DNA from: Acidobacteriota bacterium
GTDB lineage: Bacteria > Acidobacteriota > Aminicenantia > Aminicenantales > Saccharicenantaceae
Direction: 5' to 3'
Assembly: GCA_039683095.1 (NCBI GenBank)
Contig: JBDKSB010000012.1
Span: 342,293-406,292 of the forward strand
Length of the DNA stretch: 64,000 nt
Shown: positions 3,115 through 62,613 of the stretch, piece by piece
Layout of the letters: the number at the start of each line of letters is the position of its first letter
Numbering within the stretch: position 1 is the first letter of the stretch
Made by a program: the position numbers and the translations under genes
Notes under the pieces: model-generated
The model's input: the letters and a program-made list of their open reading frames with translations, nothing else
The model's database searches: none
Told to the model about the DNA's origin: nothing

Positions 3115-4785
3115 CTACTTCATCATCGGGATCTTGATGCCGTTCTTCCTGGCGCAGGCGACGGCTTCCGGGTAGCCCGCGTCGGCGTGCCGCGCGACGC
3201 CAAGCCCCGGGTCGGCCGTCAGGACGCGCTCCAGGCGCCGCCCCATCGCCGCCGTGCCGTCGGCCACCGTGACCATCCCGGCGTGGATCGACAGCCCGAT
3301 GCCCACGCCGCCGCCGTGGTGAACGGACACCCATGAGGCGCCGTTGACCGCGTTGAGCAGGGCGTTGAGGATGGGCCAGTCGGCGATGGCGTCCGAGCCG
3401 TCGCGCATGCCCTCGGTCTCGCGGTTGGGCGAGGCGACCGATCCCGTGTCGAGGTGGTCCCGGCCGATGACGACCGGCGCCGAGATCTTGCCCGTCCGCA
3501 CCAGCCGGTTGATGACCGCGCCGAAGCGGGCCCGCTCGCCGTAGCCGAGCCAGCAGATGCGCGACGGCAGCCCCTGGAACTTGACCTGCTCCCGGGCCTT
3601 GCGGATCCACCGCGCCAGGGCCTCGTCCTCGGGGAACTCCTTGAGCACGGCCTCGTCCGTGGCGTAGATGTCCTGCGGCTTGCCCGACAGCGCCGCCCAG
3701 CGGAACGGCCCCTTGCCGACGCAGAAGAGCGGCCGGATGTACTCGGGCACGAACCCGGGGATGTCGAAGGCGTCGGCCACCCCGGCCTTCTGGGCCTGGC
3801 CGCGGATGTTGTTGCCGTAGTCGAAGGTCCGGGCGCCGCGCTTCTTGAGCTCGAGCATGGCCTCGACGTGGGCGGCCATGGCCGCGTACGAGCGCCGGAT
3901 GTAGTCGGCGGGGTCTTTCGTCCGCAGCGCGATCGCCTCCTCGTACGGCAGGCCGTTCGGGACGTAGCCGTTGAGCTCGTCGTGGGCCGAGGTCTGGTCG
4001 GTCAGCACGTCCGGCGTGATGCCGCGGCGCACGAACTCGGGCAGGACGTCGGCGGCGTTACCGAGCAGGGCCATCGACAGGGGCGCGCCCCTGCGCATGG
4101 CCTCGTTGGCCAGCTTCAGGGCCTCGTCCAGGCTGTCCGTCATCGTATCGACGTAGCGCGTCTGGAGGCGCCGCTCGATGCGGCGCCGGTCGACCTCGAC
4201 GACGATGGCCACGCCGTCGTTCATGGTCACGGCCAGCGGCTGGGCCCCGCCCATGCCGCCGAGCCCGGCCGTCAGCGTCAGCCGGCCCTTGAGCGAGCCG
4301 CCGAAGTGCTTCCGGGCCGCGGCCGCCAGCGTCTCGTACGTGCCCTGGAGGATGCCCTGGGTGCCGATGTAGATCCAGCTGCCGGCCGTCATCTGGCCGT
4401 ACATGGTCAGGCCCAGGGCCTCGAGGCGCCGGAACTCGTCCCAGGTGGCCCACTTGGGGACGATCATGGCGTTGGAGATGAGGACCCGGGGCGCTTCGGC
4501 GTGGGTCCTGAACACGGCCACCGGCTTGCCCGACTGGACGACGAGCGTCTCGTCGTTCTCGAGCTTCTTCAGGCTGGCCACGATGGCCCGGTAGGCCTCC
4601 CAGCTGCGGGCGGCCTTGCCGGTGCCCCCGTAGACGATGAGCTCGGCCGGCTTCTCGGCCACCTGCGGGTCGAGGTTGTTCATGAGCATCCGCAGGGCGC
4701 CTTCCTGCGACCAGCCCTTGGTCGTCAGGCGGGAACCCCTCGGGGCCCGGATATTCAGGATCGGCTCGGAGGCAGGCTTGGCCAT
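3115..4785 (-). CDS. hutU: Urocanate hydratase (urocanase)
   Basis: A 556-residue protein of normal urocanase length. It catalyses hydration of urocanate to 4-imidazolone-5-propionate in cytoplasmic histidine catabolism, using tightly bound NAD+. Diagnostic stretches are [16 protein letters not shown] (dinucleotide-binding region), [15 protein letters not shown], which carries the conserved active-site-region cysteine, and [17 protein letters not shown] near the C-terminus. The start at 4785 (MAKPASEP) is supported by AGAGGAG 8 nt upstream. A start at 4827 would lie in the promoter. No hutH, hutI or ftcD is adjacent, so the rest of the pathway must be elsewhere in the genome. Confidence 0.97.
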
Positions 4786-33764: not shown

Positions 33765-34568
33765 TCAGTAATGAGAGAGGGTGCCGTCCTTCTTGGCCTT
33801 GCGGACGGCCAGGCGGAAGGCGGCCAGGCTGAGGGGCACGAGAAGGACGTCGAAGACGGCCAGGGCGACGATGTCGGGCAGGACGGCCCGGAACGGCGAC
33901 GAGGCCAGGAGCGACTTCCTCATGCCGTCGAGGGCGTAGGTGACGGGCAGCAGGGACGACGCCCAGCGGATCCACGGCGGCAGGAGGGAGACGGGGAAGA
34001 CGACGCCGCCGAGCAGGCCCGAGACCGTGCCCAGGATCCAGCTGAAGGGGTTGCCGGTCTTGTAGACGAGGATGAAGCTGGCCGAGAGGACGCCGGCGCT
34101 GAGGAAGCAGACGACCGTGAGCAGGCCGACCGCGACGACGCCGGCGAAGTCAATCCGGCCGAAGGCCAGGCCGAAGAAGGCTGCGGCCACGGCCAGGTGG
34201 AGCGCGGTCCGGAAGATCTGGAAGAGGAGCGAATAGAGCGACGAGCCGAACAGGATGACCGGGATCGGCACCGGGGTCACGAGCAGCGCTTCGAGCGTCC
34301 CCGACAGCTGGGCGCTCCGGATGACCGCGCTCAGTCCCTCCTGGAACATGCCCAGGAGCCCGGAGAAGGCTACCCCGACGACGGCGAAGGAGAAATAATC
34401 GCCGCCGAACGGACCGAGCGACGGCGAACCCGGAGGCACCAGCTTGGCCACGAAGTAGAACGTCGCCAGCGAGAGGAGGATGCCGACGATGGACGAGACG
34501 AACGAGAACTTGTAGGTCACGGCCTCCCGGAAATCGCGCCGGAGGAAGGCGCCCAGGACGCCGCTCAC
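33765..34568 (-). CDS. ABC-2 type transporter permease
   Basis: A 267-residue integral membrane protein with six predicted transmembrane helices (about 23-43, 62-80, 110-135, 140-165, 172-195, 230-252). It has the ABC-2 family features RDFREAVTYKFSF at the N-terminus and SLLPVTYALDGMRKSLL before the last helix. It overlaps the ATPase stop by 4 bp (ATGA). Together they form an exporter, probably of a glycolipid, polysaccharide or small peptide. The gene lies next to an exopolysaccharide locus and behind a nucleotidyltransferase gene. Confidence 0.9.
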   Translation of the reverse strand: MSGVLGAFLRRDFREAVTYKFSFVSSIVGILLSLATFYFVAKLVPPGSPSLGPFGGDYFSFAVVGVAFSGLLGMFQEGLSAVIRSAQLSGTLEALLVTPVPIPVILFGSSLYSLLFQIFRTALHLAVAAAFFGLAFGRIDFAGVVAVGLLTVVCFLSAGVLSASFILVYKTGNPFSWILGTVSGLLGGVVFPVSLLPPWIRWASSLLPVTYALDGMRKSLLASSPFRAVLPDIVALAVFDVLLVPLSLAAFRLAVRKAKKDGTLSHY

Positions 34569-35365
34569 GGCCGGCCCTCCGCCTCGCCGACGGCCTGTTC
34601 ATAGGCCCGGCGCAGGGCCCCGCGCCCGCCCGCGGCCAGGGACGCGGCCGGGCCGCTCAGGCGGATGCGGCCGCGGCTGATGACGGCGATGTCGTCGGCG
34701 CAGTCGGCGGCCTCGCCGAGATCGTGGGTGGCCCAGAGGATGGTCTTGCCCCGGCGGCCTGCCAGCTCGCCGCGGAGGAAGGCCCGGGCCCGGTCGGCGG
34801 CCTGGGGATCGAGCGAGCGCGTCGGCTCGTCGACGAGCAGGATGGCCGCGTCGGCGAGCAGCGCCCGGGCCAGGGACAGCATCTGGCGCATGCCGGTCGA
34901 GTAGCCGCTGAAGCGGAGATCGGCGGCTTCTTCGAGACCGGCGAGGCGCAGCAGCTCGTCGATCCGCCGGCCGCGGGCCGGCCCGCGCAGGCCGTAGAGG
35001 GCGCCGAAGAACTCGAGGTTCTGCCGGCCGGTCAGGCGCCAGTAGAAGCTCCGCTCGTCGCCGATCGCGCAGCCGACGGCCGACCGGGCCGGTCCGGGCT
35101 CGCGGGCGACGTCGCGGCCGCCGGCCAGGGCCCGGCCGCCGTCCGGCAGGACGAGCCCGGCCAGGATCTTGACGAGCGTGGTCTTGCCCGCCCCGTTCGG
35201 CCCGAGCAGGCAGAAGACCCGGCCGGGGCCGATCTCGAGGTCGAGCCCGTCGAGCGCGGTCACCGTGCGCCGGTCGAGGGGATGGCGGATAAGCTCCCGG
35301 AAGCCGCGGAAGACCGGGTACCTCTTGACCAGGCCCTGGACGAGAACGGCCGGCGTTTCGCTCAT
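34565..35365 (-). CDS. ABC transporter ATP-binding protein
   Basis: A 266-residue ABC-2 type ATPase. Walker A GPNGAGKTTLVK lies at about 54-65, the signature is YSTGMRQMLSLARALL, Walker B is AAILLVDEPTRSLDPQA, and the H-loop is WATHDLGEAADCADDIAVIS. The signature begins STGM rather than LSGG, an accepted variant in this subfamily. It partners the downstream permease by a 4-bp overlap and follows the nucleotidyltransferase gene by 1 bp, so the three are cotranscribed. Confidence 0.93.
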   Translation of the reverse strand: MSETPAVLVQGLVKRYPVFRGFRELIRHPLDRRTVTALDGLDLEIGPGRVFCLLGPNGAGKTTLVKILAGLVLPDGGRALAGGRDVAREPGPARSAVGCAIGDERSFYWRLTGRQNLEFFGALYGLRGPARGRRIDELLRLAGLEEAADLRFSGYSTGMRQMLSLARALLADAAILLVDEPTRSLDPQAADRARAFLRGELAGRRGKTILWATHDLGEAADCADDIAVISRGRIRLSGPAASLAAGGRGALRRAYEQAVGEAEGRP

Positions 35366-58280: not shown

Positions 58281-58292
58281 AGCCAGATCTTA

Positions 58293-58352
58293 AGAAGGGG
58301 CTAAACCCACTTTTTGCTCAAAAATGCGCAAAAAGTGGGTTTGACCCCTTCT
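58293..58352. repeat. Large REP-like palindrome
   Basis: AGAAGGGG-ct-AAACCCACTTTTTGC (58293-58317) faces GCAAAAAGTGGGTTT-ga-CCCCTTCT (58328-58352): 25-base arms with 23 matched bases and a 10-nt loop. It lies between two same-direction genes and could also terminate the thiC operon. The right arm ends two bases before the -35 of the next gene. Confidence 0.8.
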
Positions 58353-58354
58353 GA

Positions 58355-58383
58355 TTGACAAGCCGCGGGGCCTGACTTACACT
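58355..58383 (+). promoter_or_regulatory. Sigma70-like promoter for the PDZ/multi-TM gene
   Basis: TTGACA (58355-58360), 17-bp spacer, TACACT (58378-58383). It implies a leader of about 12 nt before ATG 58402, with no Shine-Dalgarno sequence. Confidence 0.65.
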
Positions 58384-58401: not shown

Positions 58402-60294
58402 ATGACCGGCAGCCGCCTTCCGGAAGCGCCGCCCGCCGCGGCCCGCCCGCGGGCGCGGACGGCGCTTCTCCGGCCCGCCTCCCTGGCCGTCCTCATCCTG
58501 ACGGTCGTCGTCATCATCGTCGCCATCCCCGCCAACCTGAAGCGGCAGCGCACCGTCTCCCTCGGCGGCGTCGAGGGCCAGGTGAACGCTTCCGGCGAAG
58601 TCGTCTTCACCCGCGTCGCGCCCGGCACCCCCTCGGCCAAGGCCGGGATCGCCCAAGGCGACATCCTCGTCGCCGTCGATGGCCAGGCCCTGAAAGGCAG
58701 CCCGGCCCCGGCCCGGATCCTCGGCCGGCTCGACGGCCGGGCGGGAACGGCCGTGAGCCTGACCGTCCGCACCGGCGACTCCCCACCCCGCACCGTCTCC
58801 GTCATGAGGTCCCCCGAGCCCGGCAGCATCGCCGAGCGATTGGGCTCCATCGGCATCGGGACGAACGTCATCATCGGCTACCTGATCTTCCTGGACATCG
58901 TCGTCCTCCTGGTCTACCTCGGCGTTTCGGTCGTGCTGATCCTGCACCGCCGCGGCACCCCGCTGACCTATTTCGGCTCCGTCGCGCTGGCCACGTTCGG
59001 CGCCGCGGCCACCACGAGCGTCCAGGTCCTGGCTTACGAACCCAGCGGCTGGGGCCGGCTGGCGGCCGCGCTCGTGCCGACGGGATTCGCCGCGGCCTTC
59101 ACCTTCATGGGATTCCTCTACCCGAACGGCCGCTGGGTGCCTCGCGGCGGCCGGGTCATGGCCGCCGTCGTCTGGGCCTGGACGTTCGCCCAATGGTTCT
59201 GGCCCGCGGCGCGTCCGGGCAACTGGGGGTCCGTTCCCGCGCTGGCCGTCTACCTGGCGATGATCGTGGCCATGTTCGCCGCCCAGGTCCGCCGCTACCG
59301 GCGGGCGGCCACGCCCGCGGAGCGCGAGCAGATCAAGTGGTTCGTCGCGGCGCTGGCCTCGGTCGTCGTCGGATACGCCGTCTCCCAGGCCGCGGCCCTG
59401 GCCATCGGCGAGCTGGCCCGGCGCCCGGCCGGCGTCCCGGGCGTGGCCGTCTTCGTCCTCTGGCAGATCAGCACGCTCGGCTACCAGGTCCCCTACGCCC
59501 TGCTGGCCGTGGCCATCGGCCGGGCCCTGCTGAAGCACCGGCTCTGGGACATCGACGTCGTCATCAACCGGTCGCTCGTCTACAGCTCCGTGACCACGCT
59601 CCTGGCCGTCCTGAGCGCCGTCCTTCTGCCCCTCGTGAGCCGGCTGATCGGCCGGCTGGCCGGCAAGGTCTCGCCGGCGCTGGCCGTGCTCATCACCGCC
59701 GCCTTCCCCATCCTGGCCTTCAATCCCCTGCGGGCCCGCGTCCAGCGCTTCGTCGACCGGCGCATGAAGCCCGAGGACGTCACCTTTGACGAGACGAGCG
59801 ATCTCCTCGGCCTCGAGCTCCAGGCCTGGCTTGGCCCGGGCGAGCTGATGGGCACGCTGGTCGGCAGCGTGGCCGGGCAGCTGGACCTGGCCGCGGCCGC
59901 GGCCTACGTTCCCGAAGGCGGGGACGGACGGCTCGTCCTGGCCAGGGAAACGCCCAGCGGCGCCGGGTCGCCGCACGAGCTCGCGCTTGGGGACGAGGCC
60001 CGGGGCCGGCTCCGCCAGGGAGGGGTCGTGGCGCCGCCCGACGGTTCGGCGTTCTCGTTCCTCGTGCCGCTCGTCGCCGCCAGGACCCCAGGCGCCGAGC
60101 TCAGCGGCGTGCTGGCCCTCGGCGCCCGCCGGAACGGCCGGGGCTACACGACGCCGCTCGAGCGGGGCCTGCGGGTCCTGGGCGTCGAGGCCGGCAAGGC
60201 GATCTACGTGGCCCGGCTGCGAGAGTCCGACCGCTCGGGCCTCGAGGACCGGCTCGACCGGATCGAGCGCCGGATCGCCGAACTCAAGCCCTAG
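58402..60294 (+). CDS. PDZ domain / multi-transmembrane / GAF-like orphan sensor
   Basis: A 630-residue protein. One transmembrane helix (about 27-45, LAVLILTVVVIIVAI) leads to an extracytoplasmic PDZ domain (about 55-135, VFTRVAPGTPSAKAGIAQGD). About seven helices follow (about 150-450), with TPAEREQIKWFVAALASVVV and RALLKHRLWDIDVVINRSLV, the pattern found in membrane sensor histidine kinases of this type. Residues about 470-600 look like a GAF domain (AAAAAYVPEGGDGRLVLARE, LSGVLALGARRNGRGYTTPL). A short coiled coil ends the protein. There is no HisKA or HATPase domain, so the protein senses without an evident catalytic output. The stop overlaps the convergent radical SAM gene by 4 bp. Confidence 0.85.
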   Translation: MTGSRLPEAPPAAARPRARTALLRPASLAVLILTVVVIIVAIPANLKRQRTVSLGGVEGQVNASGEVVFTRVAPGTPSAKAGIAQGDILVAVDGQALKGSPAPARILGRLDGRAGTAVSLTVRTGDSPPRTVSVMRSPEPGSIAERLGSIGIGTNVIIGYLIFLDIVVLLVYLGVSVVLILHRRGTPLTYFGSVALATFGAAATTSVQVLAYEPSGWGRLAAALVPTGFAAAFTFMGFLYPNGRWVPRGGRVMAAVVWAWTFAQWFWPAARPGNWGSVPALAVYLAMIVAMFAAQVRRYRRAATPAEREQIKWFVAALASVVVGYAVSQAAALAIGELARRPAGVPGVAVFVLWQISTLGYQVPYALLAVAIGRALLKHRLWDIDVVINRSLVYSSVTTLLAVLSAVLLPLVSRLIGRLAGKVSPALAVLITAAFPILAFNPLRARVQRFVDRRMKPEDVTFDETSDLLGLELQAWLGPGELMGTLVGSVAGQLDLAAAAAYVPEGGDGRLVLARETPSGAGSPHELALGDEARGRLRQGGVVAPPDGSAFSFLVPLVAARTPGAELSGVLALGARRNGRGYTTPLERGLRVLGVEAGKAIYVARLRESDRSGLEDRLDRIERRIAELKP

Positions 60295-61361
60295 CGCGTC
60301 CCGAAACGCTCCCGCCGGGCCCGGGCGATGCCGCAAAGATAAGGCACGGGCTCCGTCAGCGTGCCGGTCTCAAGTAGCGACCAGGCCGGGCATCGGCCGC
60401 AGAAAGCCCGCGCCTCGCAGTCTCCGCACACCGGCGAGGCCGGCGGCGCGGCGTCGACGAAGGCGCAGACGCTCCGCCAGGCCGCGCGAAAGCCGATCTC
60501 GAGCGGCCGGGCCGCCGGCCGGGGCAGGAGCGAGCAGGCGTTCATCCGCCCGGCCGCGTCGACGACGAAGGCCGCCCGGCCGGCCCGGCAATAGAAATTC
60601 CCGTGGGCCGGGGCGGCGGCGCCCTTGAGAGCGAGCTCGATCCATTCGTCGGCCGAGGCCCGGTCCGCGGCCTCGAGCCCGACCCCCTCCTCCGCCGGCA
60701 GACGGCAGTCGTCCGCCGCCGAGGGCGCCCCGTCGGGTCGGCGGGAAAGGAGCCAGCTCGCGGAGAACGGCACGCCCCAGTTTCGGGCCGTCCGGCGCAT
60801 CTCCTCGAGCTCGCCGGCGTTGCGGCGGGTCAGGGTGGTCTTGAGCCCGAGCGGCAGGCCGCGCTCGAGCAGGGCCTCGATGCCCTTCAGGCAAGCGGCG
60901 TGGCTGCCCGGGACGCCCGTGACCGCCTCGGCCGTGGGCGCAGTGGCGCCGTAGAGGGTGATCTCGATCCGGCTGGGCGGCGCCTGGGCCAGGCGGGCGG
61001 CCACGTCCCGGGTGATCAGGGTGCCGTTGGTGTAGAGGGCCAGGACCAGGCCCAGCCGCGTCAGAGGCTCGTAGATCCCGAAGAAGTCGCGGCGGGCCAG
61101 GGCCTCGCCGCCGGTGACGAGCAGGAAAACCATGCCCGCGTCGACCGCCTGCCGGGCCAGCTCGAGCCAGGCCTGGCCCGGGATGTCAGCGTCCGCCTCC
61201 CGCCCCGCGCCGCCGGGGGGCCGGCGGACATAGCACATGCGGCAGTCCAGGTTGCAGCGGGCCGTCAGCTCGAACGTGCCGTGGGCCGGCTGGCGGTCGG
61301 CGGCCGCCCGCCGCAGCAGGGCCCGGACGAGCGATCCATAGTCCCGGGCCGGGGCGGTCAC
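60291..61361 (-). CDS. Radical SAM/SPASM peptide maturase of a RiPP cluster
   Basis: A 356-residue enzyme. The radical SAM cluster is CNLDCRMC (C36, C40, C43) in FELTARCNLDCRMCYVRRP, followed by LLVTGGEALARRDFFGIYEP (GGE SAM-binding motif). The C-terminal SPASM-like region supplies further cysteines: FYCRAG, NACSLL, VCGDCEARAFCGRC (CX2CX5CX2C) and YLCGIA, enough for auxiliary iron-sulfur clusters. Such enzymes form thioether or C-C crosslinks in precursor peptides. Its start overlaps the PqqD-like gene by 4 bp, and a two-cysteine peptide is encoded just upstream. The final CX2C replaces the usual CX3C spacing. Confidence 0.92.
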   Translation of the reverse strand: MTAPARDYGSLVRALLRRAAADRQPAHGTFELTARCNLDCRMCYVRRPPGGAGREADADIPGQAWLELARQAVDAGMVFLLVTGGEALARRDFFGIYEPLTRLGLVLALYTNGTLITRDVAARLAQAPPSRIEITLYGATAPTAEAVTGVPGSHAACLKGIEALLERGLPLGLKTTLTRRNAGELEEMRRTARNWGVPFSASWLLSRRPDGAPSAADDCRLPAEEGVGLEAADRASADEWIELALKGAAAPAHGNFYCRAGRAAFVVDAAGRMNACSLLPRPAARPLEIGFRAAWRSVCAFVDAAPPASPVCGDCEARAFCGRCPAWSLLETGTLTEPVPYLCGIARARRERFGTR

Positions 61362-61624
61362 GGCTCGAGCAGCCCCTTGCGGCCGAGCTCGTCGAGGAAG
61401 GCCCGGACGTCGGCGCGAGCCCGCTCCGGGTCGACGGCGAACCTCGCGGCGACCCCCGCCGCGATCTCTTCCGGAGAGCGGTCCTCCGCCAAGAGTTCCC
61501 AGACGCAGCGGCCGGCGGCGTTGAGGACGACCAGGGCGTTCATCTCCAGGACCTTCGCGCCGAGCGGCACGAGCAGGTCCCGGCCCCCGACGCGCTGCAG
61601 CCGGAAATCACTGCTCCGCTTCAT
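61358..61624 (-). CDS. PqqD-like RiPP recognition element protein
   Basis: An 88-residue protein with the winged-helix PqqD pattern: LLVPLGAKVLEMNALVVLNA followed by AGRCVWELLAEDRSPEEIAAGVA and DVRAFLDELGRKGLLEP. Members bind the leader region of a precursor peptide and present it to the radical SAM partner. The ATG overlaps nothing upstream. Its stop overlaps the maturase start (ATGA), so both are made together. It is not true PqqD because no other pqq gene is present. Confidence 0.92.
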   Translation of the reverse strand: MKRSSDFRLQRVGGRDLLVPLGAKVLEMNALVVLNAAGRCVWELLAEDRSPEEIAAGVAARFAVDPERARADVRAFLDELGRKGLLEP

Positions 61625-61728
61625 GCGCGCTGCGCCTTGCCCCCCGGCCGCCGCCTGGACGCCGGGCAGGGCGGTCCTCTCCCCGCGTCCTCCGTTCCCG
61701 GCGGCAGGATCCGTGGAACGGTCCCGGC

Positions 61729-61887
61729 CTACACCTCGGTCAGCCCGCAGACCTGGATGGTGGAGAAGTTGCAGCCGCCCAGCTTCGGCTGGAGATCGAC
61801 GGGGACGACGGTCGCTTCCGGCGGCTCGTAGGCTTCCCGGCGCTCCTCGTCCGCGTCGCGGCTCTTGATGAGGTCCCGATCTTCCAT
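61729..61887 (-). CDS. Putative RiPP precursor peptide with two C-terminal cysteines
   Basis: A 52-residue product from ATG 61887 with GGAGGG 7 nt upstream. The longer frame to 62013 has no ribosome-binding site and crosses the promoter. The N-terminal half is highly charged (MEDRDLIKSRDADEERREAY). A leader-like YEPPEATVVPVDLQP segment follows, then a short core, LGGCNFSTIQVCGLTEV, with C39 and C47 spaced by seven residues. There is no signal peptide. The YxPP...V...L leader pattern is shared by peptides matured by radical SAM/PqqD pairs. The gene is first in the operon, and no protease or exporter is adjacent. Confidence 0.85.
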   Translation of the reverse strand: MEDRDLIKSRDADEERREAYEPPEATVVPVDLQPKLGGCNFSTIQVCGLTEV

Positions 61888-61929: not shown

Positions 61930-61959
61930 ACTATAAGCGTCCGGCGGGACGCTTGTCAA
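61930..61959 (-). promoter_or_regulatory. Strong sigma70 promoter of the RiPP operon
   Basis: Minus strand TTGACA (61954-61959), 18-bp spacer, TATAGT (61930-61935), 43 nt before the precursor ATG. The spacer is an inverted repeat, AGCGTCC-CGCC-GGACGCT, that could be an operator. Confidence 0.75.
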
Positions 61960-61999: not shown

Positions 62000-62028
62000 T
62001 TGACCCGACTCACCGGGCGACCTATAAT
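62000..62028 (+). promoter_or_regulatory. Near-consensus sigma70 promoter of the oxidoreductase operon
   Basis: TTGACC (62000-62005), 17-bp spacer, TATAAT (62023-62028). A start near 62035 gives a leader of about 36 nt. Confidence 0.8.
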
Positions 62029-62070: not shown

Positions 62071-62613
62071 ATGGTCGAAATCCGTTTCCACGGCCGGGGC
62101 GGTCAGGGGACCGTCGTCGCCTCCAAGATCCTGGCCGACGCCATCGCCAAGGAGGGCAAGTGGGTCCAGGCCTACCCCGAATTCGGGGTGGAGAGACGGG
62201 GTTCGCCCGTCGTCGCCTTCCTCAGGATCGACGACAAGCCCATCTATGACAAGAGCCGCATCTACACGCCCGATGACGTCGTCGTCGTCGACCCGACCCT
62301 GGTCGAGGCCATCGACGTCACCGTGGGCCTCAAGCCCGGCGGCACGATCATCGTCAACAGCGACCGCCGGCCCGGGGACTTCCCCTTCTCCGGCAAGTTC
62401 AACGTCCGGACGATCGACGCCACCAAGATCGCCGTCGCCCACAAGCTCGGCAATATGGCCACGCCGATCGTCAACACGGCCGTCGCCGGGGCGGTCATCA
62501 AGATCCTCGGCCTGACCAAGCCCGAGTTCCTGGCCGCGGCCATCCGGGAAGGGATCGCCGTCAAGCCCGAGGACAACGTCGCGGCGGCCCAGGAAGCCTA
62601 CGATAAGGCCTGA
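62071..62613 (+). CDS. porG: 2-oxoacid:ferredoxin oxidoreductase, gamma subunit
   Basis: A 180-residue subunit from ATG 62071 with AAGGAGAG upstream. FHGRGGQGTVVASKILADAI is the family's N-terminal loop, and AYPEFGVERRGSPVVAFLRI follows as in pyruvate and ketoisovalerate oxidoreductase gamma subunits. The four-subunit archaeal-type enzyme oxidises pyruvate (or another 2-oxoacid) and CoA to acyl-CoA, CO2 and reduced ferredoxin, a hallmark of anaerobic metabolism. The frame upstream of 62071 crosses the promoter. The gene is first in an operon with the delta and alpha subunits. Pyruvate as substrate is the default assumption. Confidence 0.93.
   Translation: MVEIRFHGRGGQGTVVASKILADAIAKEGKWVQAYPEFGVERRGSPVVAFLRIDDKPIYDKSRIYTPDDVVVVDPTLVEAIDVTVGLKPGGTIIVNSDRRPGDFPFSGKFNVRTIDATKIAVAHKLGNMATPIVNTAVAGAVIKILGLTKPEFLAAAIREGIAVKPEDNVAAAQEAYDKA

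Follow-up and report, generated by a model that had tools for sequence, protein, structure and literature searches.

A radical SAM peptide cassette and a co-inherited PDZ membrane protein as a candidate four-gene RiPP module in Acidobacteriota

Introduction

What does a small radical S-adenosylmethionine (SAM) peptide cassette make, and for which partner, when neither an exporter nor a protease gene adjoins it? The question is raised by a 64,000-nucleotide stretch of DNA from an Acidobacteriota bacterium (assembly GCA_039683095.1, contig JBDKSB010000012.1, positions 342,293 to 406,292; hereafter the window), which encodes a two-cysteine precursor peptide, a PqqD-family recognition element and a radical SAM/SPASM maturase, the components of a pathway to a ribosomally synthesized and post-translationally modified peptide (RiPP). 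We propose, with a probability of roughly 0.6, that these three genes and a convergent gene for a PDZ membrane protein constitute a four-gene module for a radical SAM-crosslinked peptide and its dedicated membrane partner. The proposal builds on the genes themselves, their co-inheritance, the selection acting on the core of the precursor and the protein families, all of which are observed. Known radical SAM-modified peptides include antibiotics, cofactors and quorum-regulated products, and cassettes with a discrete PqqD protein and a radical SAM/SPASM enzyme are of a known kind; what is new here is an undescribed core and a receptor-like membrane protein inherited with it.

The cassette and selection on its core

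Among the 142 genomes of the class that were searched, the orthologous cassette is present in three, all of one genus, namely the window's own genome (G000) and two further species (G002 and G006), and the order of the three genes is identical in each. Its features in the window are as follows.

61729-61887, minus strand: precursor peptide of 52 amino acids, MEDRDLIKSRDADEERREAYEPPEATVVPVDLQPKLGGCNFSTIQVCGLTEV, with a YxxP leader and a core that contains Cys39 and Cys47
61358-61624, minus strand: PqqD-family RiPP recognition element (RRE) of 88 amino acids (PF05402, E 2.5e-16)
60291-61361, minus strand: radical SAM/SPASM maturase of 356 amino acids with a GTG start (PF04055, E 4.2e-17)
61819-61830, minus strand: leader motif Y20-E-P-P23, a form of the [Y/W]xxPx[L/V/I/F/A] motif
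61735-61779, minus strand: conserved core, residues 37-51, GGCNFSTIQVCGLTE (nonsynonymous rate dN 0.03 against synonymous rate dS 0.50, G000-G006)
61959-61930, minus strand: sigma-70-type cassette promoter TTGACA-N18-TATAGT, matching the consensus at 11 of 12 positions; TTGACA-N18-TAT also occurs in G002 and G006

Transcription on the minus strand runs from the precursor through PqqD to the radical SAM gene, with a gap of 104 bp between the first two genes and an overlap of 4 bp between the last two. The reading frames bear out the gene order, coordinates and overlap given in a preliminary description of this DNA, and the strong promoter noted there is confirmed as a near-consensus one, with three such sites in 2.5 kb where shuffled sequences lead one to expect 0.1. 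The PqqD protein scores 60.2 bits against PF05402 (Pfam cut-off 23.4) and the radical SAM enzyme 63.3 bits against PF04055 (cut-off 29.5), while neither passes any cut-off in NCBIfam; a PADLOC match of the maturase to viperin (34 bits) was set aside, as it reflects the common radical SAM fold. The enzyme carries the CX3CX2C motif as C36/C40/C43 and a SPASM domain with seven cysteines (C258, C276, C312, C315, C321, C324 and C343), six of them invariant and C321 nearly so in an alignment of 16 sequences. Discrete RREs bind [Y/W]xxPx[L/V/I/F/A] motifs in lasso and related pathways (PMC13381572, PMC12710340), and the best solved relative of the window RRE is that of a lasso system, TbiB1 (E 2.7e-07). 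Together with the conserved core and the orthologues, the leader motif, RRE and maturase uphold the identification of a radical SAM RiPP locus, and to judge from these sequence features this is very nearly certain to be a RiPP maturation cassette.

The precursor matches no family in NCBIfam, Pfam or PADLOC, and hence, as far as these libraries go, the view that its two-cysteine core belongs to no described class is sustained; a search for plasmid-borne relatives found none. The G002 precursor and radical SAM enzyme are each 90% identical to those of the window, and the G006 proteins are 55% and 70% identical, respectively. The core follows the nearly invariant consensus GGCNFS[TS][IV]QVCGLTE, and both cysteines, whose loss from homologues had been set beforehand as the refutation, are kept in all three orthologues. 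For the core, dN/dS between G000 and G006 is 0.06, a rough value that comes from 15 codons with one or two replacement changes, compared to 0.53 for precursor residues 1-36 (dN 0.47, dS 0.88), 0.43 for the radical SAM enzyme (dN 0.22, dS 0.51) and 0.29 for PqqD (dN 0.18, dS 0.62). The near invariance of the core beside a far more variable remainder of the precursor implies that the product is under selection, and the core, with both cysteines, is on this codon comparison the part that selection holds most tightly. The orthologues and this selection rule out a chance open reading frame as the identity of the precursor. One further precursor-like match (L091, E 0.005) has no radical SAM or PqqD gene alongside and was taken as chance.

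A convergent PDZ gene inherited with the cassette

The gene facing the cassette, which the preliminary description overlooked, and its promoter are the following.

58402-60294, plus strand: membrane protein of 630 amino acids with a first transmembrane (TM) helix, a PDZ domain (residues 46-135; PF17820, E 5.5e-10), more TM helices and a GAF-like C-terminal part
58355-58383, plus strand: promoter-like TTGACA-N17-TACACT before the PDZ gene, within a 36-bp segment that is 92% identical in G006

The stop end of this gene overlaps the 3' end of the radical SAM gene by four bases. At E<=1e-20 it was found in three of the class genomes, exactly those that have the cassette, and it lies stop-to-stop beside the cassette in each of them. 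The chance that the two sets agree would be 2e-6 if the genomes were independent; they share one genus, and since they are not independent the argument leans equally on the changed flanks. The flanks of G002 are the same as those of the window on both sides, and in G006 the window's 4.4-kb and 1.9-kb flanks were not found near the module, except for the PDZ promoter. The persistence of the pair and of that promoter in G006 despite otherwise different flanks shows that the four genes were either transferred or retained together. The PDZ protein has a dN/dS of 0.48 (G000-G006), and a functional link between it and the cassette seems quite likely from the shared inheritance.

Hydrophobic segments, as judged by hydropathy, run to about residue 443 of the PDZ protein, and no match to HisKA or HATPase was obtained at E<=10. 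All three orthologues have the same C-terminus, and thus the absence of a kinase is no local truncation. Just before the gene lies a long inverted repeat, AGAAGGGGCTAAACCCACTTTTTG ... CAAAAAGTGGGTTTGACCCCTTCT (58292-58354), that resembles a terminator or a repeat element, and related copies occur in G002 (L072, about 3975-4035).

A phylum-wide family of YxxP radical SAM/PqqD loci

Maturases homologous to that of the window are spread across the phylum (33-64% identity), and a discrete PqqD is present in many of their loci. The precursors of these relatives have a common leader of the form Y..P.....V.L (or W..P), and the distance from the Tyr or Trp to the first Cys is 19-21 residues in all 31 related precursors and 19-20 in 25 of them. 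Cys39 of the window precursor stands 19 residues after Tyr20 and hence holds the fixed first-Cys position of the family. By the homologous maturase and this fixed distance, the window cassette belongs to a phylum-wide YxxP-leader radical SAM/SPASM and PqqD family, for which no published name was found.

The three window-type loci are nonetheless distinct from the rest. Relatives mostly have three cysteines (range 2-6), mostly with CK at the first Cys, and end in Ser (29 of 31) or Thr (2 of 31), whereas the window, G002 and G006 precursors have two cysteines, no CK and a V, L or E at the end, so that a C-terminal Ser/Thr is found in 0/3 of them as against 31/31 of the relatives. The precursor gene usually follows the maturase gene in relatives but precedes PqqD in the window group, which also has the PDZ gene. 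An HprK-like kinase gene was seen at 30 of the 33 relative loci examined (two of the other three were read over 4 kb only), and none is present in the 64-kb window or in 18-19 kb of G002 and G006. The two Thr-ending precursors (L103 and L117, G456) belong to the two kinase-less loci read over 4 kb. Several relative loci also carry genes for an S26-like peptidase, a PF14907 nucleotidyltransferase and an ABC exporter.

The closest of these relatives is in another order (G324); its maturase shares 64% and its PqqD 56% identity with the window proteins, and a maximum-likelihood tree joins G324 with the window, G002 and G006 in a single clade (100/99 support) with a long stem of 0.82 changes per site. 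Such a close match in a distant order may well reflect horizontal transfer. G324 has two precursors with the same leader, YEPPEATFVPLKLEERLLTC and YEAPKATFVPLKLEERLLVC, each with two cysteines and a terminal Ser, and they are flanked by kinase, peptidase, exporter and nucleotidyltransferase genes. Descent of the clade from the three-Cys family was considered and is unsupported, as these four loci branch off separately in a tree with a midpoint root only. With the relatives' accessory genes missing here, the window cassette might be taken for what is left of a larger, decaying HprK/ABC-type RiPP operon; all four genes of the module are intact and evolve under purifying selection, and their promoters are kept, which makes decay highly improbable.

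A YxxP or WxxP leader with a discrete RRE is also the hallmark that the window shares with linear polyphosphorylated peptides (LPP) and paeninodin-type lasso peptides, for which an HprK-like kinase, a signal peptidase, a PF14907 nucleotidyltransferase and an ABC exporter are the accessory set (PMC13381572). The relatives of the window have this set, while the window, G002 and G006 lack all of it, and the described LPP/paeninodin core gene set lacks the radical SAM enzyme that the window has. The window's own genome contains a second, larger RiPP locus (L077, 7982-13323; G000:C1:193981-199322) with three radical SAM/SPASM genes, HprK-like and S26-like genes and the only other PqqD of the genome, the precursor having a WxxP leader and six cysteines (KRWQTPELIVLFKGRPEETLLCHCKHK...). 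One YxxP and one WxxP system thus coexist in this genome, as LPP and paeninodin systems are paired in Bacilli, where the RREs discriminate between Y and W.

Crosslink chemistry

From the protein families, we propose that the YxxP leader would be bound by the discrete PqqD/RRE, which would bring the 15-residue C-terminal core to the radical SAM/SPASM enzyme; a 5'-deoxyadenosyl radical made by the enzyme would then install one or two crosslinks in the core, most likely thioethers that join Cys39 and Cys47 to nearby residues. We infer both that modification occurs and that it is of the thioether type. Of the solved structures, the sactisynthase SkfB comes closest to the maturase by sequence profile (E 1e-37), and the structure model of the enzyme (predicted local distance difference test, pLDDT, 86.6) matches SuiB (Z 24.7), SkfB (Z 23.4) and PqqE (Z 21.3). 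Against SuiB, anSME, SkfB and CteB (5wgg) the model gives Z of 23-25 at 3.1-4.3 Å over 271-317 residues, the alignments spanning 259-317 residues when PqqE is included, and Z differences under 1 are treated as ties. SkfB, CteB, SuiB and PqqE all have, like the window maturase, a radical SAM fold with a SPASM or twitch domain, at about 15-21% identity to it in the structural alignments; the RRE is fused in SkfB, CteB and SuiB but is a separate protein in the window, as for PqqE. With SkfB nearest by profile and SuiB, anSME, SkfB and CteB by model, thioethers from the two invariant cysteines are the likeliest product, and Cys-thioether chemistry is, on this sequence evidence, probable.

The subclass is less readily assigned. 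The maturase does not reach the named sactisynthase models StsB (52 bits against 625) and AlbA (46 against 850), which are narrow, so that these misses exclude those subfamilies and not sactipeptide chemistry. The core GGCNFSTIQVCGLTEV lacks the hallmarks of ranthipeptides (SCIFF, freyrasin and NxxC), namely six cysteines, CX3D/E repeats and NxxC. Two invariant cysteines and an SkfB-like maturase would be compatible with, and no stronger a sign of, the Cys sulfur-to-alpha-carbon link of sactipeptides. The type II sactipeptide streptosactin (GggA/GggB), with un-nested rings Cys25-Ser28 and Cys31-Gly34 (PMC8172795), offers a likeness in that both have two cysteines, each with an i+3 candidate (C39..S42 and C47..T50 here), and it differs in the leader, in recognition (a discrete PqqD here) and in the neighbours; the rings of streptosactin are established, whereas crosslinks in the window peptide are predicted. 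Ser42 and Thr50 are invariant in the three orthologues, while the acceptors proposed in the preliminary description (Asn40, Phe41, Thr43 and Gln45) are not marked out by conservation, Thr43 being T/S. Given the composition, chance alone would put a Ser/Thr at i+3 of both cysteines with a probability of 0.04, or of 0.23 if every shared offset is counted, which gives the pattern weak weight for thioethers, and the G324 cores follow it incompletely (CDKS, CFGH, CAKQ and CSGS); streptosactin-like rings were therefore kept as a lead only.

SPASM enzymes also perform C-C linking, epimerisation and decarboxylation, and a modification of one of these kinds, with the cysteines forming a disulfide or binding a metal, is the alternative to thioethers. 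In the structural comparison SuiB, whose product is a Lys-Trp C-C link, ranks first by a margin near error, and the i+3 pattern lends thioethers little. Both cysteines are invariant, however, the first at a position where 31 of 31 related precursors have Cys, and the core has neither Trp nor Tyr, and hence we regard a cysteine-independent modification as unlikely.

Destination of the peptide

A modified-peptide gene beside a PDZ/multi-TM protein is also the arrangement of ComQXPA, in which ComP has ten TM helices and, outside the membrane between the first two, a PDZ domain where ComX, the modified peptide, is proposed to bind (PMC9620489). By this analogy, the mature peptide would have the PDZ/multi-TM/GAF-like protein as its dedicated partner, which would most likely serve as a receptor or regulator resembling the sensory half of ComP, with its PDZ domain outside the membrane. 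We infer from the layout that the PDZ protein binds the product; its assignment as the receptor is tentative. The systems differ in that ComQXPA uses a prenyl transferase where the window has radical SAM/PqqD, ComP has HisKA and HATPase domains and the PDZ protein has neither, and no ComA-like regulator is conserved beside the window module. The precursors end in LTEV (G000), LTEL (G002) and LTE (G006), and the first two tails fit class I PDZ ligands, whose form is S/T-X-hydrophobic.

Several points weigh against a peptide-and-partner module. Only three genomes have it, all of one genus, and two of them are close (90% identity for precursor and radical SAM enzyme). The GAF_3 match is below the Pfam cut-off (E 0.018, or 0.003 for the C-terminal part alone), and a single-sequence structure model of the PDZ protein (pLDDT 44) was unusable and was not used. 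The G324 locus has no PDZ gene in the 19 kb read and has exporter and kinase genes instead, and the G006 precursor lacks a hydrophobic last residue, so that the PDZ-ligand form holds in two of three only. Moreover, no exporter or leader protease is adjacent, as the preliminary description rightly stated, nor is a kinase, and the neighbouring genes thus offer the peptide no route to an outside PDZ domain.

Two other destinations come into consideration. The peptide could be an exported bacteriocin or sactipeptide antibiotic with a transporter elsewhere and the PDZ protein for self-protection. In its favour, tailoring or export genes are present at almost every related locus in the phylum (HprK-like in 30/33, and in several S26-like, ABC and nucleotidyltransferase genes), and antibacterial activity is common among short thioether peptides (PMC8172795). 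Against it, the 18-19 kb around the module in G002 and G006 contain neither an exporter nor a leader protease related to those of G324. Antagonistic peptides diversify, and a core nearly invariant across species is untypical of them, which leaves this reading improbable. Export by the ABC genes at 33765-35365, suggested in the preliminary description, finds no evidence; the pair sits with a PF14907 nucleotidyltransferase, of a type known from related RiPP operons but located here among polysaccharide-type genes, and is a possible but unlinked helper.

Conversely, the product might stay in the cell as a redox- or cofactor-like compound, as do pyrroloquinoline quinone (PQQ) and mycofactocin. The cassette is small, without an exporter, its core is invariant, and the maturase matches the PqqE and mycofactocin maturase models, all far below the equivalog cut-offs (PqqE 66/381 bits, MftC 88/265). 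Such a product is rather less probable than an exported one, since the flanks of the three species (those of G006 differ) share no downstream enzyme such as a peptidase or a dehydrogenase, and the co-inherited receptor-like PDZ gene would be left unexplained. The sensor-like membrane gene that travels with the cassette suggests instead a peptide that acts as a signal or with its own partner, rather than a plain exported antibiotic. The most specific form of the proposal, a radical SAM-crosslinked two-Cys pheromone sensed by a kinase-less ComP-like PDZ receptor that passes the signal on without histidine phosphorylation of its own, rests on the ComP analogy and is rather doubtful as a whole.

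Neighbouring features

The 18-bp spacer of the cassette promoter (61936-61953) is an inverted repeat, AGCGTCC CGCC GGACGCT; no operator is claimed, as the palindrome has one mismatch in G002 and is absent in G006. A conserved hairpin between the precursor and PqqD was rejected, with folding z of 0.29, 0.51 and -1.44, no better than shuffles. Upstream, a divergent and equally strong promoter, TTGACC-N17-TATAAT (62000-62028), precedes a gene that starts at 62071 and encodes a 2-oxoacid:ferredoxin oxidoreductase. The segment 33765-36545, next to genes of O-antigen-ligase-like and TPR type, encodes a PF14907 nucleotidyltransferase (E 7e-45) together with a pair of ABC-2 type exporter proteins; the RiPP operon of G324 includes a related nucleotidyltransferase and an ABC gene.

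Implications

No paper that pairs a radical SAM RiPP with a PDZ sensor was found among the open-licence papers searched. The module is tiny, with a core of about 15 residues, and a laboratory strain can express all of its parts, which makes both the chemistry and the link between peptide and receptor directly testable. For the family at large, the comparison across the phylum yields a testable rule: precursors end in Ser where the locus encodes an HprK-like kinase and lack such a Ser where it does not. This would be expected if the kinase phosphorylates that Ser, as the HprK-like kinases ThcoK and SyanK are reported to phosphorylate C-terminal serines (PMC10368454).

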